DNA from: Mesostigma viride
Taxonomy: Eukaryota; Streptophyta; Mesostigmatophyceae; Mesostigmatales; Mesostigmataceae
Length of the DNA stretch: 64,000 nucleotides
Assembly: GCA_009746045.1 (NCBI GenBank)
Contig: RPFO01000164.1
Coordinates: 358,212 to 422,211, forward strand
Reading direction: 5' to 3'
In this document: positions 21,406 to 56,654 of the stretch, piece after piece
How positions within the stretch are numbered: the stretch's first letter is position 1
Layout: the number at the start of each line of letters is the position of its first letter
Made by a program: the position numbers and the translations under genes
The notes under the pieces: model-generated
Databases searched by the model: none
What the model was told of the DNA's origin: nothing
Seen by the model: the letters and a program-made list of their open reading frames with translations, nothing else

Positions 21406-21419
21406 GCGCGGGTGCGGCC

Positions 21420-24400
21420 GTGCCCGCCATCTTGCACGATGTGCTCGAGCTTGCGGGCATCCCCCATGTCTGGCACCCTGCTGGTCCGCGCCGCCGTCTT
21501 CTCTCCGCCGATGAGATCGCCCGACTGCCGAGCTGGGAGCTGGGGTGGGACGCGGCGCCCGCCCACTACGGGCCGGCCCACTTGGTGGATGTCACTGCCA
21601 GCGGCCCCTCCTGCCCCATCTGCTTGGACCTGCCTCGCCCTGGTGACGGTCTCTGCCGCCTCCCTGCTTGCGGCCACGTCTTCCATCAAGCTTGCATCGC
21701 CACGAGCTTGCACACGACCTCCGCCACCTGCCCCCTTTGCCGGGCCGCGGTCCTTTCCCCCTTGCCTCCTGGCGTTCTCCCGCTGGGGCCCTCGCCCGTG
21801 TCCGTGCGCCGCCAGTCCCACGCGCCTGCCCCGACACCTGCCTCCCCTGTGCGTGGTCGTGGGTCGCGCGCCGGCTTGGCTGCCTCCTCCAGCGCCCCCC
21901 TCCCGGCCGTGGGGGCCGTCCCCGCGCCGGTCTTGTCCTCGGCTGCCACGAGCCCTGCTGACCGCCCGGCGGCCGGCCCCGCCCTGGGTTCCGCTGCAGC
22001 TGTAGTTCCTCTGGCTGAGGGTGCTCCCGACCCCTCCCCCTCTCGACCCGGGCCGGCCCAACCGGGTGGGCGCACCCCCTCAGATGGCTTCCATTATTGC
22101 CAAGTCGATGGTCCCCTTGGTGACCCGTGTGGCGCGCGCCTGCCCAACCGGAATTCGTTGCTGGTGCACATTCGGGCTTCCCACCCCCACATCACGGAGG
22201 CCGCCATGCGCGCCATGGACTGCTACCGCTGCCCGGCAGCCCATTGCCAGCGGATTTTTTCGATCCACGGGCGGTACCAGCATGAGCGGCAGTGCCGCCG
22301 CCAAACCCCCCAGAACGGCCTGCCCGGCGGCCCGGCGGCCGCACCGGCCTCCCGGTCCGGGGCGGCCCCTCGGTCGGCCCCTGCCCCTCCACCGGCATCG
22401 CAGGGTACGAGCGATCCGGGGGACCTCTCGGCAGGCTGGGCATTCCTGGCCACGCTCCCTTTTGCCGCCTGTGCGCGCAACCCTTGCATGACGCTCCCGG
22501 ACGTCCCTCACCGCGCCCGGAGCTTGTTTACGCGCTGCGCCCTGCTTTCCCTGGCCCGGATGCATAGTCACCCTCTCGACGAACTCGGCCACAAGCTGTT
22601 TCTCGTCACCCCCCGGCTCCTCTTAGCGCCGTTGGAGCGGGGCGTGCGTGGCGTACAGGGTGCGGTCATCGCTCGCTGCCGGCGGTTCCTCCTCGGGGAT
22701 TGGGAAGGGCTGTGGGCGCTGCAGCCTCCGGCCTCCACCCGGGTGTCGGGGGCCGCCTCCTTTGCCCGGGTGGAAGCTGACGTCATGCGGTTGGTGAAGG
22801 TAGGTGAATTGAGCCGGGCCATGCAAAAGCTTGAACTGACCGCGTTGGCTCCCTCCACTCCCCCGACCCTGCAGGCTTTGCGCGACCTTCACCCCGACGA
22901 ACCGGCCTTTGCGGTGCCCGCCCCGGCCACCCCCCCGCCCCCGCCTATTGTCCTGGACCTGGACATCTTCACGGCTGTGCTGAAGGATCTGCCGAACGCC
23001 TCCTCCACCGGCCCCTCAGGCTGGCGCTACGAGCACCTCTCCGTGATGGCGGGCCATGGCGGGGCGACCGCACTCTTTGAGGCTGCCGCCGACTTGGCCG
23101 CGGGGTCCCTGGCCCCCGCGGCGCGCCCTTGGCTGGCTGGGGCACGCCTCATTGCCCTCCTGAAAGACGACGTCCCCCCGCCTGCTGGCCGCGTTCGTCC
23201 CATTGCTTGCGGCGAGGTCCTACGCAAGCTGGTGAGTAAGGTCATTTGTCGCCAAAAGGCCCCCGAGTTTCGCGCCTACTTCTGCCCCAACCGGAGTGAT
23301 ACTGAGGAGTCCGTCGCGGCCCAGCTTGGCGTCGCCACCAAAGGGGGCAGCGACATCATCGTGCACACAGTTCAGGCCTACCTCGAGACGCATCCGACCC
23401 ATGTGGCGCTGAAGGTGGATTGCCACAATGCGTTCAATGCTGTCACCAAGGCTAGCATCTTTGAGGCCGTCGGCGAGGCGTTCCCTGACCTTCTTGCGTG
23501 GACAGCAGCCTGCTACGGCGAACCCACTCAACTCTCCTTCCTCATGGAGGATGGGACGTTCGCCGACATCGCTTCCCGCACGGGAACCCAGCAAGGTGAC
23601 CCCCTCGGCCCCTTTTACCTGTCTGCCCCGCTGCACAAGGCTCTCCAAGGTGTCCACGCTGCGCACCCGGATGTCGTGCTCCTCGCCTACATGGACGATA
23701 TCCATGCCCTTGGCCCGGCCGACGCTGTGGTTGCCGCCCTGGCTGCCCTTGAAGTGGCCATGGCGGCCATCAACCTTCGGCTCACCCTCCCCAAGTGTGC
23801 AGTCTTTTCGCCCCAGGGGGACTGCTCTGGCTTCCCCGCGGCTATCCCGGGGGCATTGGCGCGGGCGCGTGGTTTCTCGTGCCTGGGCGTCCCTGTGGGT
23901 GACCCTGACTACGTCGAAGAGGAGCTCCGGGCCACCGTGGAACAGCGCACCCATGTCCTTGAGACTTGGGCGCGCCTCAAGGACCCCCAGACCAAAGGGC
24001 TCCTCCTGTGGTTTTGCGCCCACCCGCGGGTGGTTCACTGGCTCCGTGGCGCTCCCCCCCACTTGGTGCGGCTTGCCGCGGAAGGCCATGACGAGCGCAT
24101 TCAGGCCGCCTTGCAGGTGCTCCTCCCCGGCCCTAGCCTGCCAGCTCACTCCATGCGCTTGGCCACCCTCCCCTGCCGCATGGGCGGGTGTGGGCTCACC
24201 CGCGCCGCCCGCCTCGCCCCCGCCGCCTTCCTTGGCTCTGTTGCTCAGGCCTGGGCGGAGATCCGCCGGTTGGTCCCCAGCGCCGTCAGCGCCATTCCCG
24301 ACTTGGTCACCCCATCCCCCTTCCCCTTTGTGCAGGCTGTGCAGGATTCTTACCTCGGGATCCAGCAGGCTTGCGACCTCGTCCGCCCCGCTCAGGCCGT

Positions 24401-25340
24401 CCACCGTCGCCTGCCCCGGGGCACGCCCGGCGTGTCCACTGTCGTCAGTCCTAGTGTCTTCCCTGCCTGCGTTCATGAAAAACAACAAAAGACCTACGCG
24501 GGTATACTACACTGTGCCGACTGGATGGGTCTGCATGCGAGCTTGAACGATCAGGGGAAGGCTTGGCTTCACTCCGTTTCCCTTGAGGGGAGCGTGGGGT
24601 CCGCATTCCTGCGCGCCCTCCCCATGAGCCCTTTGTTCACACTGGTTCCGGCCCTTTACGCCATCGCTCTCCGCCACCAGCTCTTTGCCCCGCAACCTCT
24701 CATCACGGCGGGTGCGTCCTGCGGCAGCTGCGGGCTTGCTCTGGATACTACTGGGACGCACTACATCGCGTGCATGGGTGGCCAGCAGAACCAGAACTGG
24801 TTCCTCTATCTCCATACCGCTCTCCTCCGGGTGGTGTGTGCCATGGTTCGGTCGGTCTTTCCCCACTCCACCATTAAGTGCGAGGACGCGGATGGGGCCG
24901 CCCTCTACTCACCCAACCACCGCCCCGACATTACCGTGCTTGACTACGACGGGCAGGGTTGCCACCTGCTCATCGATGTCTCCGTGGCTCGGCCGCTTTC
25001 CGGTCGCCACATCCTCCGGGCGGCTGTGGATGCCGGCGCTGCTGCCGCTGTGGCTGAGCGCGACAAGTTTGCCTCCTACGGCAATGTGGGGCCCCACCGG
25101 GTCATCCCCTTTGTCCTTGAGGAGTTCGGGGCCATGGGCCCCAAGACAGCGGAGTTTTTCCACGAGTGCTGCCAGCGCCGTGAAGACCGCCTCGACCTCG
25201 AGGGTCAGACCGCCCCGTGGTCGGCCCGCACGTGGTCCTCGTATTGGCGGCAGCGTCTGTCACTCGCCCTCACTCGCACCGTGGCTGATGTGTTATTCCG
25301 CCGCACCCGGGCCGACTTTGTCGCGACCCATGCGGTCTAG
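21420..25340 (+). CDS. Family-1 polyprotein: RING-H2, C2H2 fingers, reverse transcriptase, RLE endonuclease
   Basis: Numbered from 21420. A RING-H2 finger (residues 65-107) has CPIC, then CGHVFHQAC, then CPLC with C3H2C3 spacing. Two C2H2-like fingers follow (YCQVDGPLGDPCGARL...HIRASH and RCPAAHCQRIFSIHGRYQHE). The RT has SSTGPSGWRYEHL, RPIACGEVLRKLV, KVDCHNAFN, GTQQGDPLGP and the catalytic YMDD (757-760). A CCHC motif (C1101-C1118: CGSCGLALDTTGTHYIAC) leads into the endonuclease: RPD (1168-1170) and the downstream LIDVSV Asp (1186). That order, fingers-RT-CCHC-RLE, is the R2/NeSL/CRE type, which usually inserts at specific sites. The RING-H2 is not part of the usual set and suggests ubiquitin-ligase-like activity, an inference. 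The frame is open for 1306 residues to a TAG; no ATG starts it because the true start lies upstream of the frameshift. Confidence 0.9.
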   Translation: MPAILHDVLELAGIPHVWHPAGPRRRLLSADEIARLPSWELGWDAAPAHYGPAHLVDVTASGPSCPICLDLPRPGDGLCRLPACGHVFHQACIATSLHTTSATCPLCRAAVLSPLPPGVLPLGPSPVSVRRQSHAPAPTPASPVRGRGSRAGLAASSSAPLPAVGAVPAPVLSSAATSPADRPAAGPALGSAAAVVPLAEGAPDPSPSRPGPAQPGGRTPSDGFHYCQVDGPLGDPCGARLPNRNSLLVHIRASHPHITEAAMRAMDCYRCPAAHCQRIFSIHGRYQHERQCRRQTPQNGLPGGPAAAPASRSGAAPRSAPAPPPASQGTSDPGDLSAGWAFLATLPFAACARNPCMTLPDVPHRARSLFTRCALLSLARMHSHPLDELGHKLFLVTPRLLLAPLERGVRGVQGAVIARCRRFLLGDWEGLWALQPPASTRVSGAASFARVEADVMRLVKVGELSRAMQKLELTALAPSTPPTLQALRDLHPDEPAFAVPAPATPPPPPIVLDLDIFTAVLKDLPNASSTGPSGWRYEHLSVMAGHGGATALFEAAADLAAGSLAPAARPWLAGARLIALLKDDVPPPAGRVRPIACGEVLRKLVSKVICRQKAPEFRAYFCPNRSDTEESVAAQLGVATKGGSDIIVHTVQAYLETHPTHVALKVDCHNAFNAVTKASIFEAVGEAFPDLLAWTAACYGEPTQLSFLMEDGTFADIASRTGTQQGDPLGPFYLSAPLHKALQGVHAAHPDVVLLAYMDDIHALGPADAVVAALAALEVAMAAINLRLTLPKCAVFSPQGDCSGFPAAIPGALARARGFSCLGVPVGDPDYVEEELRATVEQRTHVLETWARLKDPQTKGLLLWFCAHPRVVHWLRGAPPHLVRLAAEGHDERIQAALQVLLPGPSLPAHSMRLATLPCRMGGCGLTRAARLAPAAFLGSVAQAWAEIRRLVPSAVSAIPDLVTPSPFPFVQAVQDSYLGIQQACDLVRPAQAVHRRLPRGTPGVSTVVSPSVFPACVHEKQQKTYAGILHCADWMGLHASLNDQGKAWLHSVSLEGSVGSAFLRALPMSPLFTLVPALYAIALRHQLFAPQPLITAGASCGSCGLALDTTGTHYIACMGGQQNQNWFLYLHTALLRVVCAMVRSVFPHSTIKCEDADGAALYSPNHRPDITVLDYDGQGCHLLIDVSVARPLSGRHILRAAVDAGAAAAVAERDKFASYGNVGPHRVIPFVLEEFGAMGPKTAEFFHECCQRREDRLDLEGQTAPWSARTWSSYWRQRLSLALTRTVADVLFRRTRADFVATHAV

Positions 25341-25439
25341 ATTCCTTCCAGGCCTGCATGGTGGGCCGGCAGCGCTGTTGCTGCGTGTAGTTTTGTGATG
25401 TATAGTTAGTTGTACCTTGTGCCGCTGGCGTGATCCTTG

Positions 25440-25834: not shown

Positions 25835-27888
25835 CATATATATATATATTAAAAATATAATTACTTACAGCAGAGTGAAATCACTCAAACCAAAGCAAAC
25901 GCCCAGCTATAAACCTATATACAGAGCCATGTCAAAGCTCGATACTACGATAAGACCAATGAAAACTCCTAACGGGAGGAACCTAATAGCCCTGCTACAC
26001 CGCAAAATCAGCCCGCGCGCGGCGGAGCATGATGTCAGCCATGGCCCCGAGTCAGCGCCACCGACAAGCGCTGACGCCAATATGACGTCCAGGTCCGCGC
26101 CGACCATGGGGCCCGCTGGCCCTCTAGGTCCAGCCGGTCCTCCCGGAGCCGGCAACACTCCTTGAAGAAGGCGGAGGTCAGGGGCCCCATGGCCCCAAAC
26201 TCCTCCAGGACAAAGGGCACCACACGATGGTGCCCGACGTCGCCGTAGGCCAGGAGCTTGGCCCGCTCCGCCCGGTCCGCCGTGTAACCTGCCGTGAGGG
26301 AGGCCCCAGCCACGTGGCTAAGAGCCAAGGGCCGCGCCACCGAAACGTCAATAAGCAGATGCCGGCCACCCCCCTCAAAGTCCAGCACCACGATGTCAGG
26401 CCGGTGGTTGGGGGAATAGAAGGCAGCGCCATCCGCATCCTCGGACCGGATGTTCGCGTGGGGGAAAACCGACCGAATCATGGCGAGCACCACCGTCAGG
26501 AGGACAGTGTGCAAATACAAATACCAATTCTGATTCTGTTGGCCCCCATGCAGGCAAGGTAGTGAGTCCCCGTGGGATCCAGCGGCTGCCCACAGCTACC
26601 ACAAGGCCGCCCGGCCGGAACAAGAGGCTGCGGGGCAAATAGCTGGTGCCGGAGCGCCACCGAGTAGTGGCTGGGAGCCAAGGCGAATGGGGGGCCATGG
26701 GAAGAGCACGAAGGTACGCCGAGCCCACACTCCGCAAGGAAAGCGAGAACAGCCACGCACGTCCCTGGGCGTTGAGGTCCGCGAAAAGAGCAATCCAATC
26801 AGCCGTGTGCAGAATACCCGCGTAGGTTTTCTGGTGTTTATCGATGACGCGAGCAGGGAATGCGGCGGGAGATTGAACGGAGGCGACCGAGGGAGTGCCG
26901 CGAGGGAGGTGGCGCTGTACCGCCTGAGCGGCACGGACGGGAGAACAGGCCTGCTGGATCTCAGCATAGGCCTCCTGGATGGCGGTGACGAAGGGCAAAG
27001 GGCTGCTGGGGTCCAGGAGGTCAGGCGCTGCCGTTGCCAAAAGGGGCAGGAGCCGGCAGCTTTCCGCCCACGACTGAGCGACGGAGCCCAAAAATGCTGC
27101 TGGGGCCAGCCGGGCGGCACGAGTCAGACCGCAGCCACCCATCCGTGCAGGCAGGGAGGCAATGCGAATAGCATGTGGCGGGAGGTCGGGGCCCGGGACC
27201 AGCTGCGCCAAGGCCGACTGGATGCGTTCGTCGTGGCCCTCGGCGGCCAGCCGGACCTGAGCCGGAAGAGCGCCCCGGAGCCAGTGAACGACGCGAGGGT
27301 GAGCGCAAAACCACAGAAGCAGACCCTTGGTCTGCGAATCATGAAGGCGCGCAATCAAGGGCAGTACCTCAGTGCGTGCCTCGAGGGCGGCCCGCAGAGC
27401 ATCGATGACAAACGCGGGGTCGCCAACCGGAACGCCGAGGACATCCAACCCATGGAGGCGCTCGTCCCGGCCCAAGAGCTGGGGCGGAAAGCCGGAGCAA
27501 TCACCTTGGGGCGAGTACACCGCGCACTTGGCCAGGGTCAACTGGAGGTTGATGTCGGCCACCGCGGTCTGCAGTGCCAGCAGAGCCGCGGTGGTGTCCG
27601 GCACAGGGCCCAGAAGGTAGATATCATCCAAGTAGGCCTGAATAGCGACTGCCGGGTGGGCAGCATGGACCGCTTGGAGGCAACCCTGGAGGGGGGCGGC
27701 AAAGTACAGGGGTCCCAGGGGGTCCCCTTGCTGGGTGCCCGACCGCGACAGCAGGCCGCCGCGAGTGCCGTCCTCCATGATGTGAACCAGTTGGCCGGGC
27801 TGGCCGTAGCACACGGCTGTCCAAGCGTACAAGTCCTCGAAGGACTCCATGACGGCCGCAAACATGCTGGCGCGGGACAGACTATCCG
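25835..27888 (-). mobile_element. Non-LTR family 2, copy A (5'-truncated)
   Basis: Minus-strand copy with its 3' end at the left: a (TA)n run, TTAAAAATATAATTACTTAC (reverse of the family 3' end), a ~170-base 3' UTR, then coding sequence for RT (from the palm, with AYLDDIYLLG), CCHC and the RLE endonuclease. Compared with copies B and F it lacks one base in two homopolymers (near 26690 and 26545), which splits the frame. It is 5'-truncated at about 27888 next to a CATATATATAT run shared with copy B, with which it forms an inverted repeat. Confidence 0.88.
26035..27865 (-). pseudogene. Family-2 RT-endonuclease ORF, copy A
   Basis: The frame opens inside the RT (MFAAVMESFEDLYAWTAVCY), carries GTQQGDPLGPLYFAAP and the catalytic YLDD, then a helical linker (GLLLWFCAHPRVVHWLRGAL). 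Two single-base homopolymer losses near 26690 and 26545 move the C-terminal CCHC (CGSCGQPLDPTGTHYLAC) and endonuclease (NHRPDIVVLDFEGGG, LLIDVSVARP) into other frames. Residue identity to family 1 is high throughout, so both belong to one clade. Nonfunctional alone because the N-terminal fingers and RT start are absent. Confidence 0.85.
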
Positions 27889-29696
27889 CATATATATATC
27901 AGGCCTACTTGGATGATATCTACCTGCTGGGCCCTGTGCCGGACACCACCGCGGCTCTGCTGGCACTGCAGACCGCGGTGGCCGACATCAACCTCCAGTT
28001 GACCCTTGCCAAGTGCGCGGTGTACTCGCCCCAAGGTGATTGCTCCGGCTTTCCGCCCCAGCTCTTGGGCCGGGACGAGCGCCTCCATGGGTTGGATGTC
28101 CTCGGCGTTCCGGTTGGCGACCCCGCGTTTGTCATCGATGCTCTGCGGGCCGCCCTCGAGGCACGCACTGAGGTACTGCCCTTGATTGCGCGCCTTCATG
28201 ATTCGCAGACCAAGGGTCTGCTTCTGTGGTTTTGCGCTCACCCTCGCGTCGTTCACTGGCTCCGGGGCGCTCTTCCGTCTCAGGTCCGGCTGGCCGCCGA
28301 GGGCCACGACGAACGCATCCAGTCGGCCTTGGCGCAGCTGGTCCCGGGCCCCGACCTCCCGCCACATGCTATTCGCATTGCCTCCCTGCCTGCACGGATG
28401 GGTGGCTGCGGTCTGACTCGTGCCGCCCGGCTGGCCCCAGCAGCCTTTTTGGGCTCCGTCGCTCAGTCGTGGGCGGAAAGCTGCCGGCTCCTGCCCCTTT
28501 TGGCAACGGCAGCGCCTGACCTCCTGGACCCCAGCAGCCCTTTGCCCTTCGTCACCGCCATCCAGGAGGCCTACATATGCTGAGATCCAGCAGGCCTGTT
28601 CTCCCGTCCGTGCCGCTCAGGCGGTACAGCGCCACCTCCCTCGCGGCACTCCCTCGGTCGCCTCCGTTCAATCTCCCGCCGCATTCCCTGCTCGCGTCAT
28701 CGATAAACACCAGAAAACCTACGCGGGTATTCTGCACACGGCTGATTGGATTGCTCTTTTCGCGGACCTCAACGCCCAGGGACGTGCGTGGCTGTTCTCG
28801 CTTTCCTTGCGGAGTGTGGGCTCGGCGTACCTTCGTGCTCTTCCCATGGCCCCCCCATTCGCCTTGGCTCCCAGCCACTACTCGGTGGCGCTCCGGCACC
28901 AGCTATTTGCCCCGCAGCCTCTTGTTCCGGCCGGGCGGCCTTGTGGTAGCTGTGGGCAGCCGCTGGATCCCACGGGGACTCACTACCTTGCCTGCATGGG
29001 GGGCCAACAGAATCAGAATTGGTATTTGTATTTGCACACTGTCCTCCTGACGGTGGTGCTCGCCATGATTCGGTCGGTTTTCCCCCACGCGAACATCCGG
29101 TCCGAGGATGCGGATGGCGCTGCCTTCTATTCCCCCAACCACCGGCCTGACATCGTGGTGCTGGACTTTGAGGGGGTGGCCGGCATCTGCTTATTGACGT
29201 TTCGGTGGCGCGGCCCTTGGCTCTTAGCCACGTGGCTGGGGCCTCCCTCACGGCAGGTTACACGGCGGACCGGGCGGAGCGGGCCAAGCTCCTGGCCTAC
29301 GGCGACGTCGGGCACCATCGTGTGGTGCCCTTTGTCCTGGAGGAGTTTGGGGCCATGGGGCCCCTGACCTCCGCCTTCTTCAAGGAGTGTTGCCGGCTCC
29401 GGGAGGACCGGCTGGACCTGGAGGGCCAGCGGGCCCCATGGTCGGCGCGGACCTGGACGTCATATTGGCGTCAGCGCTTGTCGGTGGCGCTGACTCGGGC
29501 CATGGCGGACATCATGCTCCGCCGTACGCGGGCTGATTTTGCGGTGCAGCAGGGCTATTAGGTTCCTCCCGTTAGGCGTTTCCATTGGTCTTATCGTAGT
29601 ATAGAGCTTTGACATGGCTCTGTATATAGGTTTATAGCTGGGCGTTTGCTTTGGTTTGAGTGATTTCACTCTGCTGTAAGTAATTATATTTTTAAA
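27889..29696 (+). mobile_element. Non-LTR family 2, copy B (5'-truncated)
   Basis: Plus-strand copy starting at CAGGCCTACTTGGATGAT after a CATATATATAT run and ending with CTCTGCTGTAAGTAATTATA. It covers the RT from the YLDD motif onward, the CCHC and the endonuclease. A 4-base insertion at 28571-28580 (CTATGC became CTACATATGC) truncates the first frame, and one G is missing near 29171 (GAGGGGGTGG against GAGGGGGGTGG). Confidence 0.88.
27902..29561 (+). pseudogene. Family-2 RT-endonuclease ORF, copy B
   Basis: Reads AYLDDIYLLGPVPDTTAALL onward, same protein as copy A, until the 4-base insertion at about 28574 ends the frame as EAYIC. The second frame (28584-29170) continues EIQQACSPVRAAQAVQRHLP to the endonuclease RPDIVVLDFEG. 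A one-base loss then shifts the last segment (LALSHVAGASLTAGYTADRA ... FAVQQGY, stop at 29561). Apart from these breaks only a few base differences from copies A and F were noticed by eye. Confidence 0.85.
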
Positions 29697-29780
29697 ATAT
29701 ATATAGGTTTATAGCTGGGTGTTTGCTTTGGTTTGAGTGATTTCACTCTGCAATAAGTAATTATATTTTTAATGTATATA
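29697..29780 (+). repeat. Extra copy of the family-2 3' end
   Basis: A second TATAGGTTTATAGCTGGGTG ... TTTCACTCTGCAATAAGTAA tail follows copy B directly, separated by a TA-rich run. It is either a tandem duplication of the tail or a very short truncated insertion. Confidence 0.75.
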
Positions 29781-29975
29781 TATCGTCGTCACGGGCTGAC
29801 TTTGCGGCACATCACGATTATTAGGCTGTTTTACTTCATTCCGCAGTGTGGATCGAGTGTCGCATGCCGGCCATATACAGTTATTTTGTCGTGGTATCTC
29901 TGGTTAGCGTTGGCTTTATTTATGTTTAATTGGGTGTCTTCACTCTGACGTTAGTAATTATACTTTTTAATTAAC
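29781..29975 (+). mobile_element. 3' fragment of a third non-LTR family
   Basis: After TATATATATCG the sequence encodes a decayed C-terminus and a 3' UTR containing TTATTTTGTCGTGGTATCTC and GTTAGCGTTGGCTTTATTTA, ending TTCACTCTGACGTTAGTAAT. The same 3' end is at 58930-59120 and, in part, 25736-25830. Confidence 0.7.
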
Positions 29976-30322
29976 ATATCTAGACAACTAATCTATACCG
30001 GCCAAGACCATGATTCGCAGTGTGGCCCCACCACGTACAGGATGCAATCTTGGGTGTGTTAGATCATGTCTACATGCAGCATGTGTGGGTTGTCATGATG
30101 GCTGGTGTTTCTCCTGCCTTAATTGGGATCCCTGAAGTTTAGTGTGTGCGTGAGCATGGCAAGGTGCATGCGTGCGCAAGCATGACAAGGTACTAAGGTG
30201 CATGTGCAAGCATGACAAGGTGTGTGTGCCTAAGTAGAAGGTTGCTAATTTGGTCTCTTTCTGACTTACTCATGTGAATGGCTCATCGTTTGCCCTACAT
30301 TATCGTGTGTGCTTCTCACCAG

Positions 30323-30412
30323 CGTGTGTGAACATCGCGCGCGGCAACGATATTGACCTGGGCTGCAATTCAACTCTACCCCGCTGTGCTAACGGAGTAT
30401 GCGCCATACCCG
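30323..30412 (+). CDS. 90-bp symmetric exon, 30-residue Cys-rich module, copy 2
   Basis: Acceptor GCTTCTCACCAG and donor CCCG/GTATGC bound exactly 90 bases in phase 1-1. It translates to (A)CVNIARGNDIDLGCNSTLPR then CANGVCAIP(G). It aligns without gaps to the exon at 19397-19486, sharing Cys and the DID.GC, TLP.C and NG positions. The two exons are 10.8 kb apart, with the non-LTR cluster (20.6-30.0 kb) between them. Confidence 0.7.
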
Positions 30413-30552
30413 GTATGCCACAGGTTTCTGCTGCCGCACGCATCGTTATCGTCGCTGAAAGTCAAGCATTCGTAATAAGTATTTGACAGTCTGTTTCAAT
30501 AGCTTCAACGTACGTCGCTTTGGCCTATGTTACTTCCTGCTAGCTTCTTACA

Positions 30553-30645
30553 TATATTCATTGAGAATGATAAATTACGGAGGTGAGATTGGCGTGCAAC
30601 ATAAGGAAAACCCCGAAAAGAAGAAGAACCCTGAAGAAATTAATA
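30553..30645 (-). repeat. Tail repeat T, standalone copy, minus strand
   Basis: Reverse complement of the T signature: TATATTCATTGAGAATGATA, GGAGGTGAGA, then AACATAAGGAAAACCCCGAA and GAAGAAGAACCCTGAAGAAA. No coding part of family 1 adjoins it. The surrounding 30413-31684 looks intronic, with no other feature recognised. Confidence 0.7.
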
Positions 30646-31684
30646 CACATGTGGCGTCACGGTTGCAGATACTGCTCGCCCTGTGAATCCCTTGTGCCGT
30701 GCGTGAATAGCAGCACCCCGCTGAGGTGAAGGCCCGGTGTCTCTAACATGTTCTGGCACTTTGTTATGCTACCTGATGTTCTGATAACTCGTTGCACTGG
30801 AAGCTGGGTACACAATGGAGGTGTGTGCATTACTTACGTGTGGAGTTTGCTCTTGTGATTGGCTGAGTCGGTGCCATGGCACAAGCAGCGGCTGTAGTGT
30901 GGCGCCATAAGTAGTAACTTGGCCCTTTTGCTTGGTATTATGCCAGTACAATTAGTACCAACTGTATAGTGTGGCGCTATATATAAAGTAGTAGCTTGGC
31001 CCATTTGCTTGGTGTTATGCTATTATATATAGTTGTCTAACTGTGGCTTTCGGAAACAGATACTTCACATCACAATATTATAGTATATATGTGCCCGATT
31101 ACCTTTATAATTTTCTACCTATGTAACTTGGCATGCAGCCTTCCATAGCTGTTGATAGCCAAAGTAGCAGCAAAACTATTCAACCAAGGTTTATATTGGG
31201 TAATCCCATCTTTGGAGTGCCCAGAACACGGTCCCGCAAACTGGGTACATGAGGCCAGCAGAGAGAGGCTAGGGACGCAGTTGCCATGGGGCCATGTAGT
31301 TACAAGTTACAATCCGTGCAAGTCAGCGACCGGTGGTCTGCTTTGAATGCACACCATGGTGAAAGGAACCGACTTAGCTTACGCTGGATGGGGCCCCTAG
31401 CTGTGACGGCACGGCTGTGAGCTTTACGACCGGCTGTTGGGCCGGCCTGTGTGCATGCATGGTAGTGCTTGCAAGAGTTTCAAGGGGCATGCCTGAAAAT
31501 TGGTGACACACTCATGTATGATACACACATATGCCAAACACATATGCCATGCACCCAATGATGCCTTTCACACATGATACTCACCAGAAGCAACAGTTCT
31601 AATCATGTCAACCATAATGTTGCTTGTGCTCAACGACATTCGCGCACGCGGCTGTGCTCCGTCCGCACTCGGCACTCGCGGCAG

Positions 31685-32429
31685 CCATCAACCCGGACTG
31701 TGACTTCAACGGTGCTGAGTTGGATGCAACCTGCGAGACCTCCCTGGCCGTGCAAGCCACGGTCGACATCTTCATGGATGATGTCTGCATCCTGTCCCCC
31801 GACCCCACGCCCTCGGAGCTGGAGGCGTTCCGCGCGGCACTCTTCGACGCGCTAGCCCGATCCCTCCCCGGCGCGCCCATCCCGGCGTGTGCGTTAGACT
31901 TCTCGTGGTACAAGAGGCCTGGCACGCGCCGGCGCCTGATGCAGAGTGTGCACGAGATCGTGCTCGCATTCAAGGTGTACATGAACGACATCCCACAGGC
32001 GACGGCGCTCATGGATCTAGTTAACTCGCACGCGTTCGGTCTGTTCCTGGCCTCGTACTTCAACGTGGCGGTCGGGGACGTACAGACCGTGCAGAACATG
32101 CGCGCAGTCTTCTGGATCCTCAGCTCGGCCACATCCGACCCCCACTTCACGACGTCACGGGGGGAGAAGTTTGACTTCAACGGGGAGGCGAACCGGACGT
32201 ACTGCATCGTCACCGACAGGGCCCTCCAGGTCAACGCACGGTTGACCGGTCCCGCCCACGTTGCTGCCCTGCCTGTGTCATCATCCCTGTCCGGCCCGGA
32301 TACCCGCACCTGGATGGACCATGCAGGTGGGTATCCTCTTTGGAACCGACCGTGTGCTCGTGGGCGCAGAGTCGTCTGCTGGCGCGGGCTACGCCAATGC
32401 TTTCGGCACCCTGCTGCATGGTGAATGGG
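31685..32429 (+). CDS. Exon with a VWD-like domain
   Basis: Acceptor CACTCGCGGCAG and donor GG/GTACGT both fit phase 1. The first ~140 residues (AINPDCDFNGAELDATCETS...) are unrecognised. Then comes SDPHFTTSRGEKFDFNGEAN RTYCIVTDRALQVNARLTGP, the GDPHF...FDF.GE...YC.VSD...VNA pattern of von Willebrand type-D-like domains found in plant and algal extracellular proteins. Near 32319 four extra bases (GGACCAGG became GGACCATGCAGG) shift the frame; without them it reads TWMDQVGILFGTDRVLVGAE and the exon is 741 bases, a multiple of three. Either a broken allele or an artefact. Probably part of the same secreted or matrix protein as the RTX and Cys modules. Confidence 0.65.
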
Positions 32430-33787
32430 GTACGTTCCCGAGTATGCCTTATGCTTTCTTTGGCCGTGTTGCCTCCTTTGACAGGCCTCAGTGCATGACA
32501 GCCGTGCCTTTGGGGGCCAGTTGGGAAGTGGCTGTTTGCGTTGGTAGGTCTCATGGAGCAAGCTTGCTGTGGCGTGGATGGATGGACGGACGGTTGGGCG
32601 CATGGATACTGGCGCCTGGCTTGATATGTACTCTAGGGCATGATGCGTTGATCTCGCCAGGTCATGATCTCACGAAAGGTGATTGCTATACATAGACTGG
32701 TTGGCTTCCTCGAGACACAGTTGGTGCTGTGGAATCGGCCAGAAAATTGAGAAGGTACGTGCGGTACAGACACGTCACTCGGGCATACTATACGATGTGC
32801 GTAATTACAACACAACGCACGCGTGCCTTTGCCGAGCTATCCAACCTCGCTGGCATGCTCATGACATCTTAGGTGCCCCCACCTGCCACCACCAGGGTGT
32901 CGCACCATGCATGTCCAGCTAGCTACTACTATTGTTGGGCACTTCACATACTGCAGTACAAGCATCTCATATATACCAGCTAGGTGCTCATACATCAGCA
33001 CGTGCTATATGCTGTGCTAGCACCATGCATGTAGCTGCACGATACCAGGAAGGCCCTGTGCAGCAAATTGCGATCTTGTGCCCGGCCCTATAGCAGCTGG
33101 TCGATTTCGTGTCCTTGGTTTGTAGACCCAATGCCAAGGGGTCATCGCTGCAAAATCAATATCGAGAGGCGAGAGAGCAGGAGCAGTATCTGGGCTTGCG
33201 GGTAGAAAACATGGGCAAATACTTTATTGAAGAGGATTTCTTGATCAGATAAGCTTTGCATGATCAAGCCTCTCATGAGCGCGTTTCCACGCCATCTTTA
33301 CTTGGGTGTGCATGCAAATCAATGCTCACTGTTACCGTAGCGGGCAACCGGCACACATTCTCCTGCATGCATGCATGCACCTGACGGGTTGACTGTCACG
33401 GGGAGAGGACCCACTGGTTCTATACCGAGATGGTGACAGCACCACAATAGCGCCGGGCCAGCCACGCCCATGTCTTGAGCACCAGACATCCGTGCATGGC
33501 TGCGCATGACAATGCCGTGGCGTATTAGTCCTGTGCCGCAAAGTTCAGACCTCGGACACCTGGCCGGGTTCTTGCCCACACATCAATGGCCCCTCATTGC
33601 GGGCACTGCCCTCAGTCCACATGCAGGATCGAGCTTGGTGCGCCCAGTGGAGATAGGTATACACCCACTGACCTGCATGAAGTGGGGCGCTTGTTCTGCT
33701 TGGTTCAACTTGTATTGGCCATCATCGGGCGTGCGGACTCATCTCTTGCTTGCATGAAACGACCCTCTCGCGCGCACATGCATGCAG
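32430..33787 (+). other. Presumed intron, 1.36 kb
   Basis: No coding sequence was recognised. It is rich in GCATGC/TGCATG words, for example TGCATGCATGCATGCA near 33365, as is much of this locus. Confidence 0.4.
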
Positions 33788-34129
33788 AAACCGCATACCG
33801 CCCCCAGCGGTGTCCTGACGCTGCCTTCCGGTGTATCGATCTCTCGCAAGAAGACGCGCATCACGGTCAGCGCCCCAAACCTGGTCTCGATCGAGATTGA
33901 GGTCGTGCGAGCGAGCTTCTGGGAAGTCGGAAAGGGGCCCGGCAAGAACTTCTTAAACCTCAGACTGTTAGAGTTCCACCCCACCAGCGACGTGCACGGA
34001 ATCCTGGGCCAGTCCGATCGAGGGACTGGCTCTGGGAACTGGACCATGCAGGACTCGGAGGATTACCAGACAACGGGGATTTTGGCCACGGATTGCCACT
34101 TCAACCAATACGTCAGCCTGGCGGCTTAA
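33788..34129 (+). CDS. Terminal exon of the VWD-like gene
   Basis: An acceptor-like CATGCATGCAG precedes it and a TAA at 34127-34129 ends it. The protein reads SGVLTLPSGVSISRKKTRIT VSAPNLVSIEIEVVRASFWE then FHPTSDVHGILGQSDRGTGS and ends DCHFNQYVSLAA. VHGILGQ matches the VHG.LGQT motif that closes this type of VWD-like domain. From this acceptor the exon is one base out of phase with phase 1, which again equals a 4-base excess. A GTATCGATC palindrome near 33835 or another spot could be the insertion; the true acceptor is uncertain. Confidence 0.55.
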   Translation, partial: KPHTAPSGVLTLPSGVSISRKKTRITVSAPNLVSIEIEVVRASFWEVGKGPGKNFLNLRLLEFHPTSDVHGILGQSDRGTGSGNWTMQDSEDYQTTGILATDCHFNQYVSLAA

Positions 34130-34199
34130 GGGAGAGGACCGTCACCGCACGAGCTAATGGCTCAGCGCTCCCAACCTTTGATATGCCTGTTGGTTCTGC

Positions 34200-34640
34200 C
34201 CATGCAGGGTCCCGCACGGCCATTGATATAGAGGGAATTGTGGTCCATCAGCGAGATTTCCAACCTTATCATCAGGGCCGGTTGCGGCAGGACCTGTCTC
34301 AGTGTATTGGGCATCCAGGACTGAGGCACCCCTCAGGCAGTGTACATGGACGGCTTGTCACAATTCTCACGCATGAAGTGGGTTTCCCTGATTTTAACGG
34401 CGGCCGCTTCTCACAGGACCTGCCTCTGTACTGGGCACTCAGGGGGGCACCCCTGGCAAGGTACATTTGTTGTCAGTCACGCTTATTTGCGCGTGAAAAC
34501 GCTAGAGACCCGCGCCGCCAACTTTGTAAGTCGCGTGTGAAAGCGCGACTTCCAAAGTTGGTGATGGTCTCTTGCTGCAAGGACTGCCTTTGTACTGCAC
34601 TTGGCAATCAGGGGGACATCCCTGGGACGGTACATAGATA
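34200..34640. repeat. Three degenerate tandem units in the 3' flank
   Basis: CAGGACCTGTCTCAGTGTAT, CAGGACCTGCCTCTGTACTG and CAAGGACTGCCTTTGTACTG each open a diverged block (starts near 34289, 34414, 34577) that runs through a G-rich stretch to GG(T/A)ACAT. They lie just downstream of the stop at 34129, possibly in the 3' UTR. Confidence 0.6.
34518..34563. other. 18-bp stem hairpin
   Basis: CCAACTTTGTAAGTCGCG and CGCGACTTCCAAAGTTGG are reverse complements except for one position, separated by TGTGAAAG. It lies inside the degenerate tandem units. Confidence 0.7.
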
Positions 34641-34859
34641 GTTGTGTGTTAGAAAGCGATCACAGAGGTTTCGTTTGCCTCTTAATCATGACTGTGTGTC
34701 TCAGCTTGTCGTGTGTCCTAATTGTCATGCTCCGTGTGTTTGTCTGCTTGTTATGTGTGCTTGCATGTTTGCATCTGTTTGCTGGCAGTTTCCAAGTGGT
34801 TTTAGTTTCTGACGGCTTTATATGCGTGGCAACTGTGGTATAGATAGGATGCACATGTT

Positions 34860-35206
34860 ATAATATGTGACAACGTGATTTGTACGTGATTTATTGAGAT
34901 TTGTGTGTGATGGCATGTTTTCTACCATGTGCTCGCCCCCTAGCTAGTAGTATCCTAGCTGTTGTATTTTATTATTTTATTTTATTTTTCGTTTTCAATT
35001 AAGGCGTAAAAGTCATCAAAAAAGTAAGCAAATCATCTGCTCTGGGAATTAAGCGTCAATAAATAACACATGCAGTCGCATAGATAGTTATAGTTCGATC
35101 GAGTTGATTAATTCGTGCTGATGTTAATTCAAAAATTGCACCAGTACTATAGCACGTATATAAGATTAATCAAACTGCTATGTACATGAGAGTCGGGACT
35201 TGTATT
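34860..35206. other. AT-rich intergenic stretch
   Basis: Contains T/A-rich runs such as TTTTATTATTTTATTTTATT and no ORF of note. I see no feature before family-2 copy C begins at about 35207. Confidence 0.5.
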
Positions 35207-36236
35207 TAGCTTGACGTTTCGGTGGCGCGGCCCTTGGCTCTTAGCCACGTGGCTGCGGCCTCCCTCACGGCAGGTTACACGGCGGACCGGGCGGAGCGGG
35301 CCAAGCTCCTGGCCTACGGCGACGTCGGGCAACATCGTGTGGTGCCCTTTGTCCTGGAGGAGTTTGGGGCCATGGGGCCCCTGACCTCCGCCTTCTTCAA
35401 GGAGTGTTGCCGGCTCCGGGAGGACCGGCTGGACCTGGAGGGCCAGCGGGCCCCATGGTCGGCGCGGACCTGGACGTCCTATTGCCTATTGGCGTCAGCG
35501 CTTGTCGGTGGCGCTGACTCGGGCCATGGCTGACATCATGCTCCGCCGTACGCGGGCTGATTTTGCAGTGCAGCAGGGCTATTAGGTTCAGTCCCGTTAG
35601 GAGTTTCCATTGGTCTTATCGTAGTATATATATTAAAAATATAATTACTTACAGCAGAGTGAAATCACTCAAACCAAAGCAAACGCCCAGCTATAAACCT
35701 ATATACAGAGCCATGTCAAAGCTCTATACTACGATAAGACCAATGGAAACGCCTAACGGGAGGAACCTAATAGCCCTGCTGCACCGCAAAATCAGCCCGC
35801 GTACGGCGGAGCATGATGTCCGCCATGGCCCGAGTCAGCGCCACCGACAAGCGCTGACGCCAATATGACGTCCAGGTCCGCGCCGACCATGGGGCCCGCT
35901 GGCCCTCCAGGTCCAGCCGGTCCTCCCGGAGCCGGCAACACTCCTTGAAGAAGGCGGAGGTCAGGGGCCCCATGGCCCCAAACTCCTCCAGGACAAAGGG
36001 CACCACACGATGGTGCCCGACGTCGCCGTAGGCCAGGAGCTTGGCCCGCTCCGCCCGGTCCGCCGTGTAACCTGCCGTGAGGGAGGCCCCAGCCACGTGG
36101 CTAAGAGCCAAGGGCCGCGCCACCGAAACGTCGTAGTATATATAGAGCTTTGACATGGCTCTGTATATAGGTTTATAGCTAGCTGGGCGTTTGCTTTGGT
36201 TTGAGTGATTTCACTCTGCTGTACATAAGTAATAAT
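35207..36236 (+). mobile_element. Non-LTR family 2, copy C (3' fragment), split by copy D
   Basis: Plus-strand fragment starting at TTGACGTTTCGGTGGCGCGG, in the endonuclease region, with an in-place 7-base duplication (CTATTGCCTATTGG near 35480) that breaks the frame. Its 3' UTR stops at CGTAGTATATATA (35620-35632), where copy D is inserted, and resumes at 36132-36236 with GAGCTTTGACATGGCTCTGT through to the 3' end. The resumed part has two 4-base insertions relative to copy B: TAGCTAGCTGGG near 36176 and TGTACATAAGT near 36226. Confidence 0.82.
35633..36131 (-). mobile_element. Non-LTR family 2, copy D, inserted in copy C with a 13-bp target duplication
   Basis: Minus-strand 3' fragment of about 499 bases. 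CGTAGTATATATA flanks it on both sides (35620-35632 and 36132-36144). Its 5' truncation (GACGTTTCGG) falls within about two bases of the truncation point of copy C. The coding part reads from VSVARPLALSHVAGASLTAG to the stop after FAVQQGY with no break. Confidence 0.85.
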
Positions 36237-37165
36237 ATTCATTGAGAATGATAAATTATGGAGGTGAGATTCGGCATGAAACATAAGGAAAACCCCGAAA
36301 AGAAGAAGAACCCTAAAGAAAATAATAGTAATATGACAATTGCAAGGATCACGCCAGCTGCACAAGGTACAACTAACTACATCACAAAACTACGACACGC
36401 AGCAACGTACATCGCTGCCGGCCTACCAGGCCTGGGAGGGATCTAGTCATCTAGACCGCATGGGTCGCGCGACAACGTCGGCCTGGGTACGGCGGAATAA
36501 CACATCAGCCACGGTGCGAGTGAGGGCGAGTGATGCAGGCACTGCATGCCGCCAATACGAGCTAGGACGATGTGCGGGCAGACCACGGGGCGGTCGATCT
36601 GACCCTCGAGGTCGAGGCGGTCTTCACGGCGCTGGCAGCATGCACTCGTGGAAAAACTCCGCTGTCTTGGGGCCCATGGCCCCGAACTCCTCAAGGACAA
36701 AGGGGATGACCCGGTGGTGCCCCACATTGCCGTAGGAGGCAAGCTTTTCGCGCTAGCTAGCTCAGCCACAGCGGCAGCAGCGCCGGCAACCACAGGCCCG
36801 CACGGAGGATGACTTGGCGACCGGAGAGCGGCCGAGCCACGGAGACATCGATAAGCAGGTGGCAACCATGCCCATCGATCGTCGTCAAGCACGGTAATGT
36901 CGGGGCGGTGGTTGGGTGCATGAGTAGAGGGTGGCCCCATCCGCGTCCTCGCACTTGCATGATGGTGGAGTGGGGAAAGACCACCGAACCATGGCACACA
37001 CACACCACCCCGGCGGAGGAGAGCGGTATGGACTCAGATAGAGGAACCAGTTCTGGTAACTTCTGCTGGCCACTGGATCCCATGCACGCGATGTATAGTG
37101 CGTCTCATGGTAGTATCGAGAGCAAGCCCGCATGCAGCTGCCGCACCGTCGGCCGGGACGCACCC
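36237..37165 (-). mobile_element. Non-LTR family 1, decayed 3' fragment (copy E)
   Basis: Starts with a T tail (36236-36330, minus) and reads back through the family-1 3' UTR, the endonuclease and the CCHC region. Base identity to 24700-25435 is high, but at least ten short insertions, mostly 4 bases, interrupt it (TGCATG, CTAG, CGATC, GCTAGCTAGC and others). No frame survives. Confidence 0.85.
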
Positions 37166-37490
37166 CATGCCCATCTCACCTCCGCGTAATCTATCATTCT
37201 CAATGAATATATATTGGTATATACTTGTACTTGCACACTGTCCTCCTGACGGTGGTGCTCGCCATATGGTCCGGTCCATTTTTCCCCACGCGAACATCGG
37301 CCCCGGTCTGCATTAGGATGCGGACGGCGTGGCTTTCTACCCGGCCCCCCAACCATGCACCGCGACCGGACATCTTGGTTCTGGACTTTGAGGGAGGCGG
37401 CCCGGGCACTTGCTCATGAACGACATTTGTGTGGCTTGCCCCTTGGCTCTTAGTAGCCATGTGGTTGGTGCATCCTGCAGGTGGCGGGCT
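37165..37490 (+). mobile_element. Tail T fragment followed by a decayed family-2-like fragment (H)
   Basis: CCATCTCACCTCCGCGTAAT then CTATCATTCTCAATGAATAT (37165-37212) is a partial T. It is followed by a plus-strand piece matching the segment from YLYLHTVLLTVVLA to RPDILVLDFEGGG, with many small insertions. Both ends of the piece abut TATATA runs. Confidence 0.7.
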
Positions 37491-39803
37491 ATATATATAT
37501 TAGAAATATAATTACTTACAGCAGAGTGAAATCACTCAAACCAAAGCAAACGCCCAGCTATAAACCTATATACAGAGCCATGTCAAAGCTCTATACTACG
37601 ATAAGACCAATGGAAACGCCTAACGGGAGGAACCTAATAGCCCTGCTGCACCGCAAAATCAGCCCGCGTACGGCGGAGCATGATGTCAGCCATGGCCCGA
37701 GTCAGCGCCACCGACAAGCGCTGACGCCAATATGACGTCCAGGTCCGCGCCGACCATGGGGCCCGCTGGCCCTCCAGGTCCAGCCGGTCCTCCCGGAGCC
37801 GGCAACACTCCTTGAAGAAGGCGGAGGTCAGGGGCCCCATGGCCCCAAACTCCTCCAGGACAAAGGGCACCACACGATGGTGCCCGACGTCGCCGTAGGC
37901 CAGGAGCTTGGCCCGCTCCGCCCGGTCCGCCGTGTAACCTGCCGTGAGGGAGGCCCCAGCCACGTGGCTAAGAGCCAAGGGCCGCGCCACCGAAACGTCA
38001 ATAAGCAGATGCCGGCCACCCCCCTCAAAGTCCAGCACCACGATGTCAGGCCGGTGGTTGGGGGAATAGAAGGCAGCGCCATCCGCATCCTCGGACCGGA
38101 TGTTCGCGTGGGGGAAAACCGACCGAATCATGGCGAGCACCACCGTCAGGAGGACAGTGTGCAAATACAAATACCAATTCTGATTCTGTTGGCCCCCCAT
38201 GCAGGCAAGGTAGTGAGTCCCCGTGGGATCCAGCGGCTGCCTACAGCTACCACAAGGCCGCCCGGCCGGAACAAGAGGCTGCGGGGCAAATAGCTGGTGC
38301 CGGAGCGCCACCGAGTAGTGGCTGGGAGCCAAGGCGAATGGGGGGGCCATGGGAAGAGCACGAAGGTACGCCGAGCCCACACTCCGCAAGGAAAGCGAGA
38401 ACAGCCACGCACGTCCCTGGGCGTTGAGGTCCGCGAAAAGAGCAATCCAATCAGCCGTGTGCAGAATACCCGCGTAGGTTTTCTGGTGTTTATCGATGAC
38501 GCGAGCAGGGAATGCGGCGGGAGATTGAACGGAGGCGACCGAGGGAGTGCCGCGAGGGAGGTGGCGCTGTACCGCCTGAGCGGCACGGACGGGAGAACAG
38601 GCCTGCTGGATCTCAGCATAGGCCTCCTGGATGGCGGTGACGAAGGGCAAAGGGCTGCTGGGGTCCAGGAGGTCAGGCGCTGCCGTTGCCAAAAGGGGCA
38701 GGAGCCGGCAGCTTTCCGCCCACGACTGAGCGACGGAGCCCAAAAATGCTGCTGGGGCCAGCCGGGCGGCACGAGTCAGACCGCAGCCACCCATCCGTGC
38801 ATGCAGGCAGGGAGGCAATGCGAATAGCATGTGGCGGGAGGTCGGGGCCCGGGACCAGCTGCGCCAAGGCCGACTGGATGCGTTCGTCGTGGCCCTCGGC
38901 GGCCAGCCGGACCTGAGCCGGAAGAGCGCCCCGGAGCCAGTGAACGACGCGAGGGTGAGCGCAAAACCACAGAAGCAGACCCTTGGTCTGCGAATCATGA
39001 AGGCGCGCAATCAAGGGCAGTACCTCAGTGCGTGCCTCGAGGGCGGCCCGCAGAGCATCGATGACAAACGCGGGGTCGCCAACCGGAACGCCGAGGACAT
39101 CCAACCCATGGAGGCGCTCGTCCCGGCCCAAGAGCTGGGGCGGAAAGCCGGAGCAATCACCTTGGGGCGAGTACACCGCGCACTTGGCCAGGGTTAACTG
39201 GAGGTTGATGTCGGCCACCGCGGTCTGCAGTGCCAGCAGAGCCGCGGTGGTGTCCGGCACAGGGCCCAGAAGGTAGATATCATCCAAGTAGGCCTGAATA
39301 GCGACCGCCGGGTGGGCAGCATGGACCGCTTGGAGGCAACCCTGGAGGGGGGCGGCAAAGTACAGGGGTCCCAGGGGGTCCCCTTGCTGGGTGCCCGACC
39401 GCGACAGCAGGCCGCCGCGAGTGCCGTCCTCCATGATGTGAACCAGTTGGCCGGGCTGGCCGTAGCACACGGCTGTCCAAGCGTACAAGTCCTCGAAGGA
39501 CTCCATGACGGCCGCAAACATGCTGCATGGCGCGGGACAGACTGTTGAACGCGTTGTGGCAGTCGACCTTGACGACAGCGTGGGTGGGGTGGGCCTCGAG
39601 GTAGGCCTGCACCGAATGGATGAGGATATCCGCCCCGCCTGGAGTCGTCACCCCCAGCTGGGCCGCCACCGAGGTCTCACGTACCGCTGCGAGGGGCGGG
39701 CAGAAAAAGGCACGGAGCTCGGGCGCCTTTTGGCGGCAGATCACTTTGCCCACGAGCTTGCGGAGCACCTCACCGCAGGCGATCGGGCGCACCTTGCCCT
39801 CGG
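37490..39803 (-). mobile_element. Non-LTR family 2, copy F, 3' part
   Basis: 3' end at the left (GGGCTATATATATATTAG then AATATAATTACTTACAGCAG). The copy continues on the far side of two inserted LTR elements: 51724-52270 and 58387-58644. Removing the LTR elements and one copy of each 5-bp duplication restores an uninterrupted frame at both junctions (VLPPPE/GKVRPIACGEVL and TPLGRG/VRGLQGAVIARC). Two 4-base insertions (near 38801 and 39525) are the main breaks. Confidence 0.9.
37634..39792 (-). pseudogene. Family-2 RT, CCHC and endonuclease, copy F
   Basis: Three frames together encode RPIACGEVLRKLVGKVICRQ, HAVVKVDCHNAFNSLSRA, the catalytic AYLDDIYLLG, the helical linker, CGSCRQPLDPTGTHYLAC and the endonuclease (NHRPDIVVLDFEGGG, LLIDVSVARP), ending FAVQQGY at 37634. 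The frame changes exactly at TGCATGGCG (39522-39530) and at GTGCATGCAGG (38798-38807), each with 4 bases more than copy A or B. Otherwise it is the best-preserved family-2 copy. Confidence 0.88.
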
Positions 39804-40261
39804 AGTTGGATGGAGACTAGGAACGACGAACAACTGCTGAAGCTGAAAGCGAATGATGATTGTATTACAATAATACAATGAGAGAGCGATGAAAGCTGAG
39901 GGCTCAGAATGGAACGTCTGGGCAAACTCGGGTCCTGCGGCACTCCCCAGTGCTACGCCTATATGCCTATGGCGGTGCTACCTGCAGCACCTCACCAGTG
40001 GACAACTGTACACTGCAATGCCATGCGACCACGTCACTAGCAACCAGCTAAGACTCGGCCCGTCAGGCCCGGCTACACCGGACCTGGCGGGTCGAGCTAG
40101 CACCTAGGAACAGTCTGGCACTAACCGCACATCGGTCCACATGACACCTCAGTACCGTACACCCTGCCGTACTGTACTGAGGTGTCCCGCTCAGCCGCGG
40201 TAGGCAATACGCGGCGCGCAGGCCGGAAATCCGTGTGTCAGCCTAAGCATCTCATCTAACT
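39804..40261 (-). repeat. Copia-1 3' LTR
   Basis: 458 bases, identical by eye to the LTR at 51266-51723. Contains a hairpin (CACCTCAGTACCGTAC ... GTACTGTACTGAGGTG, about 40144-40184) and ends AGTTGGAT (left) and ATCTAACT (right) on the plus strand. Confidence 0.93.
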
Positions 40262-40711
40262 CCCATTATGTTTTCCTTTCAGGTTGAAGGCTAGCGACTT
40301 CAAGCCTGACCCTGCCCAGCTAGGAGACTGACTCAAAGCTGACTGAGGTGCTGAGCAACTGACACCCATACTGCAACATCTGGACTGAAAAAGATGGGCC
40401 CCAGAACTCGTGCAATACTTGTGATGGCATCACGTTTAGCTCAACATGCCCGGGGAGTTCCTCCTCCTCGCGAGCTCACAAGGGAGATAGCTATGCCTGT
40501 CTGCCTATCCAGGGAGTGCATCACCAGCCAAGAGAGCCATTGTAAAAAAAAAATGCCAAGGTAACCGTTTAAGAGGTTCCATGTTGTTCCATCATCATCG
40601 CCCACTCAGAGAAAAAATACCCAGCCAGGCTGGGTCAACTGAGCTCAGGTTACCTGCAACCTGAGGAGTGACAGTGGACAGGTTTATTGCACCCTGCACT
40701 GTCCATGTTGT

Positions 40712-56653: not shown

Positions 56654-56654
56654 G

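Follow-up and report, generated by a model that had tools for sequence, protein, structure and literature searches.

The DNA considered here is a window of 64,000 nucleotides from Mesostigma viride (Streptophyta; contig RPFO01000164.1, positions 358,212 to 422,211, forward strand), which is part of a 440-Mb assembly of 2243 contigs (GCA_009746045.1). The window is dense in retrotransposons, with two families of long interspersed nuclear elements (LINEs) carrying RVT_1, one copia-type element and one gypsy-type element. The subject of this study is a set of short insertions by which similar copies of such elements differ. Many of the four-base insertions follow a simple rule, in which a dinucleotide XY is turned into XY, its reverse complement and XY again, written XY+rc(XY)+XY. 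All results rest on about 0.33 Mb (328,714 bp) of one genome, and both the insertions and the rule were read from the assembly consensus sequence.

The LINE copies of the window

An N-terminal RING finger is present in one of the two LINE families. The best match to a LINE protein of the window is 51% identical, and the closest named relatives, from the green alga Cymbomonas tetramitiformis, are 43% identical. The relevant copies are as follows.

21330..25340, forward strand: LINE family 1 copy with a 1336-aa open frame, RING and RVT_1, the 3' part of which was used as comparison
25839..27883, reverse strand: LINE family 2 copy A, 5' truncated, without the four-base insertions described below
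27899..29706, forward strand: LINE family 2 copy B
35211..35628, forward strand: first part of LINE family 2 copy D, interrupted by copy C
35625..36132, reverse strand: LINE family 2 copy C, sitting in TATA of copy D
36141..36239, forward strand: tail of copy D; the 99 columns aligned to the reference copy hold 1 mismatch and two four-base gaps
36228..37155, reverse strand: old, insertion-riddled LINE family 1 copy between copies C and F, aligned to 24710-25561
37489..39803, reverse strand: LINE family 2 copy F

The 3' ends of LINE family 2 copies (25839, 29706, 35625 and 37489 in the window; loci L009-L047) read TTTTTAATATATAT and are located in TA repeats. Several copies landed in the TATATA of earlier ones, giving tandem or nested arrays (L014, L024, L043, and C in D). 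Copies A and B lie head to head, separated only by ATCCGCATATATATA (27884-27898), and form inverted arms of 675 bp.

Family 2 was also sampled at 39 further loci. These were the best-matching of 1263 first-look candidates, and the sample therefore leans to young, uninterrupted copies; their long alignments are 98.4-100% identical to the reference copy, L020.

Five insertions of four bases

The first-pass annotation of the window had picked out five four-base insertions among near-identical LINE copies. All five exist in the assembly, each in only one of the copies compared.

28572..28575, forward strand: TA to TACATA, in copy B only, off the reverse-complement rule, placement ambiguous
36176..36179, forward strand: insertion giving AGCTAG / CTAGCT (AG-CT-AG; GCTAGC in the alignment), in the tail of copy D, obeying the rule, placement ambiguous
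36222..36225, forward strand: TA to TACATA, in the tail of copy D
38798..38801, reverse strand: TGCA to TGCATGCA, in copy F only
39524..39527, reverse strand: CA to CATGCA, in copy F only

The division originally drawn among them also stands, three obeying XY+rc(XY)+XY and two being TA-CA-TA. Compared pairwise, copies F and A differ by 11 mismatches and five gaps, of which two are four-base insertions (at about 38798 and 39524) and three are 1-bp gaps within C or G runs; the insertion at 28572 is seen when F and A are aligned to B. Exact 24-base words spanning each of the five inserted alleles were found once in all the sequence compared. The empty-site words for four of the insertions occurred 40, 44, 44 and 39 times, and that for 36222 was found 0 times because a nearby mismatch breaks it.

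Elsewhere in copy D, positions 35479-35490 read GTCCTATTGCCTATTGG where other copies have GTCATATTGG, which by eye resembles the footprint of a longer target duplication of 7-8 bp.

Gap lengths and the dinucleotide rule

Distinct gaps of up to 30 bp were collected from an all-against-all comparison of 297 kb (the full 328,714 bp minus 32,000 bp of later blind regions), from which microsatellite-type gaps had first been removed. The 150 gaps comprise 42 of 1 bp, 36 of 2 bp, 23 of 3 bp, 36 of 4 bp, 5 of 5 bp and 8 that are longer. Their lengths have a second peak at 4 bp, followed by a sharp drop from 36 gaps to 5. Slippage was considered as a source and set aside: filtering of homopolymer, dinucleotide and trinucleotide runs left the four-base class intact (36 of 36), and the classes of one to three bases lost 29 of 130.

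Twenty-two of the 36 four-base gaps obey the rule, compared with 2.2% of 40,000 random four-base segments of the same sequence (binomial 1e-27). Judged against the same segments, 26 have the form XY-NN-XY (19.8% at random) and 23 are self-complementary (9.6%), so that the four-base, self-complementary excess looked for since the first-pass annotation is present. Tandem duplications make up five (3.3% at random), and those five also fit the palindrome rule. Without the five insertions first noticed, the rule is obeyed by 19 of 31. Several dinucleotides serve as XY in the 22 cases (CA/TG 14, TC 3, CC 2, and AG/CT, AC and GT one each), and the rule is thus not bound to one dinucleotide, though CA/TG is the commonest. 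TA-CA-TA makes up two of the 36 gaps; CA-CA-CA or TG-TG-TG makes up none.

Gaps of two bases, three composite ones being left out, show a related pattern. The reverse complement of an adjoining dinucleotide accounts for 18 of 33 (null for the same parse, 19.7%) and tandem duplication for 12 of 33. Eight of these 12 are TA or AT/TA, and CG and GC give at most two; TA constitutes 3.3% of dinucleotides. Under a looser parse, with free stagger and free length of the palindromic (P) addition, 31 of the 43 gaps between 2 and 5 bp can be fitted (null 36%, 24%, 9% and 4% for 2, 3, 4 and 5 bp), in a set that omits three of 29 earlier gaps and enters one gap twice, once per strand.

Insertions also predominate over deletions. 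Relative to L020, the family 2 copies, with those of the window, have 15 insertions and one deletion of 2-5 bp (copy D being left out, as is a tract of L044 that has been replaced) and 63 substitutions. Some insertions are present in at least two copies (L009/L010/L013; a pair within L014; a pair within L024).

Differences of 1 bp in C/G runs at family 2 reference positions 341, 2590, 2738 and 2912 are common to up to 12 copies, and such differences are probably consensus noise or slippage. L031 and L040, on the small contigs C306 and C93, share their flanks and 3.8 kb of sequence. Compared as possible alleles they were 100% identical and so offered no heterozygous sites; the two are likely duplicate contigs.

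Blind regions and sequence outside the repeats

Four 8-kb regions picked by round coordinates served as a blind check. They contain 16 new four-base gaps, of which five fit the rule; 12 of the 16 lie in one satellite array aligned to itself (L049), where three fit, and elsewhere two of four fit. Seven pairs run through a different aligner, a set that overlaps both the all-against-all set and the blind regions, gave 13 of 23 four-base gaps fitting the rule, and 11 of 19 among insertions in the second copy. The satellite arrays (L049 2273-8000 and L050 907-2639) have repeat spacings near 70 bp and 35 bp, and the L050 self-alignments among those listed have substitutions and no gaps.

Across the 103 kb that has no second copy among the compared sequences, the 12 rule hexamers occur at 1.51 times their third-order expectation. 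Control patterns in the same 103 kb give 1.25 (XY+complement+XY), 1.08 (XY+reverse+XY), 1.21 (other XY-NN-XY) and 1.36 (XYXYXY), and CATGCA and TGCATG rank 3-4 of 4096 hexamers. In L026, moreover, a terminal-repeat element has a rule insertion, TG-CA-TG, by which its arms differ. The hexamer excess outside repeats, where unmasked does not equal single-copy, lends mild support to a process that extends beyond LINEs.

Uneven load among copies

The load of insertions is very uneven among copies and does not track substitutions. Aligned to the open-frame copy (24710-25561), the old family 1 copy at 36228-37155 has 31 insertions, six deletions and 35 substitutions. Its insertions comprise seven of 1 bp, eight of 2 bp, three of 3 bp, eight of 4 bp and five longer, and six of the eight four-base insertions obey the rule. 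One insertion of eight bases looks like two rounds of the rule at a single site (AG-CT-AG-CT-AG), and one of the six deletions (TGCA) can be taken for a rule insertion in the comparison copy. Substitutions in this copy are C>T or G>A in 13 of 35 cases and transitions in 16 of 35; they are not clustered near gaps, since 13 of 35 are within five columns of one, a zone that takes in 37% of all columns.

In L016 a copy at 5741-7218 is similarly riddled, with 47 insertions, 12 deletions and 127 substitutions over two alignments. L018, compared with the open-frame family 1 copy, has seven substitutions and no gap in 1416 columns, and L011 and L023 differ by 153 substitutions and 11 gaps of 2-4 bp. 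Fisher tests on these pairs, which were picked after inspection, gave 6e-9 for 36228-37155 against L011-L023, 2e-4 for L016 against L011-L023 and 0.04 for 36228-37155 against L018. L010 and L013 were left out of the load comparison as segmental copies of L009.

A proposed model of staggered breaks and hairpin-type repair

What the sequences themselves show is the cliff in lengths, the rule, how few deletions there are and how unevenly the load is spread; from these features we infer a break, hairpins and a step of annealing. The insertions would be the scars of double-strand breaks, staggered by 2 bases, whose ends folded back or formed hairpins and were then rejoined with almost nothing lost, and we give this reading a probability of about 0.5. 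A nuclease would cut the two strands two bases apart, leaving the dinucleotide XY on both ends, each of which would next become a hairpin by sealing or folding. Once the hairpins were opened about two bases beyond their tips, 3' overhangs would result, XY+rc(XY) at one end and rc(XY)+XY at its partner. If these annealed over their last two bases and were joined, the product would be XY+rc(XY)+XY, a gain of four, the ends having acquired about two palindromic P bases and met through microhomology. Where XY is self-complementary, as in TA, the overhangs would anneal over all four bases and yield XYXY. The model thus predicts that self-complementary dinucleotides gain only two bases and others four, while trimming would give gains of three, two or one. 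The cutter may have been a transposase-like nuclease, with no element surviving at the site.

Staggered-break repair was among the sources suggested in the first-pass annotation, and it is favoured by the cliff after four bases, by the inserted dinucleotide being usually the reverse complement of its neighbour, and by the 15:1 excess of insertions of 2-5 bp in LINE family 2. The richness of two-base tandem duplications in TA (8 of 12) would also follow, since a gain of two is what the model predicts for self-complementary XY. Ac/Ds excision offers a precedent in which hairpins, P nucleotides and microhomology occur together (PMC5873905).

Several observations weigh against this model. Fourteen of the 36 four-base gaps are off the rule, as are 11 of the 16 in the blind regions, and the two TA-CA-TA cases stand where TATA is predicted. 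By eye, several off-rule gaps look like fold-backs with a loop of one or two bases (GTT-TG-AAC, CAG-CA-CTG, GTG-AG-CAC, CAG-A-CTG), and such short loops suit self-priming better than a sealed hairpin. Off-rule gaps of this sort suggest that two processes are mixed, or that the fold-back is self-primed and need not be a sealed hairpin every time. The self-complementary CG and GC contribute at most two of the 12 two-base duplications, which makes a target preference for TA an equally simple reading of that class. Gaps from pairs of 78-90% identity were polarised mainly by their pattern. The hexamer excess also depends on the background model: at first order the rule set reaches 1.67 in the unmasked 103 kb, less than the 1.85 of XYXYXY, and at fourth order the rule set falls to 1.156 in the unmasked part (controls 1.05-1.12) and 1.007 in repeats (controls 0.89-1.02).

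Alternative explanations

A possible, if doubtful, alternative is that the insertions were left behind by a highly active cut-and-paste transposon that duplicates 2 bp of its target and excises through hairpins (CACTA/EnSpm-like, or a relaxed relative of Tc1/mariner), each insertion marking a site where an element sat and then left. Palindromic footprints derived from the flank are a hallmark of Ac/Ds in passages of PMC5873905, a footprint of two bases plus up to two more would match a 2-bp duplication, and the concentration on CA/TG (14 of 22 rule cases) and TA is what a target preference would give. The first-pass annotation had raised an excising element; no element with the appropriate 2-bp duplication was found in the roughly 0.3 Mb scanned. 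A scan for terminal repeats with 2-bp duplications returned 34 matches, by eye satellite, LINE-pair or fold-back sequence with no clear element, although a rare one could escape a sample of about 0.3 Mb from a 440-Mb genome. Overlaps of 2 bp occur in four of 70 listed interruptions, each time TA and each time at the junction with a LINE that lies in the TATATA tail of another. Furthermore, the copy at 36228-37155 packs 31 insertions into about 850 bp, with one site apparently used twice, and copies riddled so densely argue against one transposon visit per scar. CA-CA-CA or TG-TG-TG footprints would be expected if element ends supplied CA/TG, and they number 0 of 36. As for the proposed Tc1-type footprint, its TA-CA-TA form does exist, but in only two of 36 four-base gaps, and Tc1 ends were rejected as the sole source.

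The other inserts among the 70 interruptions are LINEs, LTR (long terminal repeat) elements and some chance chains. They include a 1.2-kb insert with an 8-bp duplication within a LINE family 1 copy (L009 5739-6947, with segmental copies), parts of which read by eye like what we take to be a Penelope-type reverse transcriptase. Further inserts are one of 1.3 kb with a 6-bp duplication (L018) and one of 51 bp with a 5-bp duplication (L014).

An unlikely further reading is a dedicated repeat-disabling process that peppers copies with palindromic insertions mostly of up to 4 bp, an insertion counterpart of repeat-induced point mutation (RIP). It would combine a nuclease of 2-base stagger, favouring CA/TG and TA steps, with hairpin-type joining, and the copies at 36228-37155 and in L016 (5741-7218) would be its products.

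Short template switching, or snap-back synthesis of the polymerase-theta kind at ends or forks, would dispense with a covalent hairpin, and we judge it rather unlikely. Several off-rule four-base insertions do look by eye like stems with loops of one or two bases, and TA-CA-TA can be drawn as a TA/TA stem with a CA loop. Snap-back synthesis is expected to yield a broad range of lengths and small deletions, whereas lengths here drop after four and family 2 has one deletion of 2-5 bp against 15 insertions.

Errors of reverse transcriptase at the birth of each LINE copy, fixing its load at that moment, are very unlikely. The aligned copies are indeed mostly LINEs, and a load that is uneven and independent of substitutions would fit; but the TG-CA-TG insertion between the arms of the L026 element and the third-order enrichment of rule hexamers in the unmasked part point elsewhere, and no reverse transcriptase error known to us writes a dinucleotide in reverse complement. 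Trapped topoisomerase II, whose 4-base 5' overhangs can be filled in to give four-base tandem duplications known in yeast and human cells, matches in length, but the insertion equals the neighbouring four bases in only five of 36 gaps, all of which also fit the palindrome rule, so that this highly improbable source is mostly refuted. An artefact of assembly or consensus is scarcely credible: the evidence is an assembly consensus, and 1-bp gaps in G/C runs look like ordinary consensus errors, but the insertions are in old and young copies, some are common to more than one copy, they obey a reverse-complement rule, and no sequencing error known to us writes a reverse complement.

Comparison with known systems

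Footprints of hAT elements are palindromic additions copied from the flank and often joined with microhomology, as described in parts of PMC5873905 and PMC4561436; for Ac/Ds, the former describes P-nucleotide insertions that arise from hairpins and puts the share of cases with microhomology at 85-100% for Arabidopsis and 51% for Candida. Flank-derived palindromic bases are likewise found here, in 22 of 36 four-base gaps. Elements of the hAT group duplicate 8 bp, whereas the repeated unit here is 2 bp, numbers fall off after four bases, only 8 of 150 gaps exceed 5 bp, and no element was seen in the compared sequence.

In V(D)J joints, hairpin opening is a source of P nucleotides, and Artemis is described as mostly vertebrate (both in passages of PMC13041557). 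The likeness lies in that step, from the opening of RAG hairpins by Artemis to P nucleotides, with hairpins that in Mesostigma would be those of our model. Coding joints of V(D)J recombination have no stagger duplication, and deletions in them are common.

Tc1/mariner and Stowaway elements share with the present case a 2-bp TA duplication, the TA-CA-TA form (2 of 36) and the frequency of TA to TATA among two-base gaps. Mariner-type scars retain bases of the element end, according to a passage of PMC4561436. In contrast, the rule insertions take their bases from the flank. Topoisomerase II insertions are of at most 4 bp, but the known ones are tandem duplications, which here are 5 of 36. The resemblance to RIP in fungi is that some repeat copies are heavily mutated and others spared; the difference is that the changes here are insertions, not C-to-T, with C>T or G>A in 13 of the 35 substitutions of the riddled copy.

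Other repeats of the window and sampled loci

Copy F is interrupted by two LTR-type elements (37489-58645). The first has identical 459-bp repeats (39804-40262 and 51266-51724), and the second is a copia element (52271-58387) with 745-bp repeats and the 5-bp duplication CACGC. At 40920-42318 lies a 1.4-kb structure with inverted ends AGTTAGGTTAATATTGTGCGG, a 5-bp duplication GAGCA and internal repetition, and a 525-bp direct repeat (44062-44586 and 45545-46069) is 100% identical. Outside the window, L025 holds a long fold-back of 3.3 kb (3651-6964) with arms that differ by many short gaps.

Implications

Small deletions outnumber small insertions in most genomes. In this sample of Mesostigma, small rule-bound insertions rival substitutions in some copies, and a literature search at title and abstract level found no account of such a genome-wide signature. 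Taken together, the findings suggest that DNA is broken and rejoined here by an unusual route, able to riddle some mobile-element copies. If this is true, these copies would offer naturally occurring material for studying how breaks are built and how ends are joined, in a lineage from which no V(D)J system is known. They could also tell whether a host can silence its repeats by insertion.

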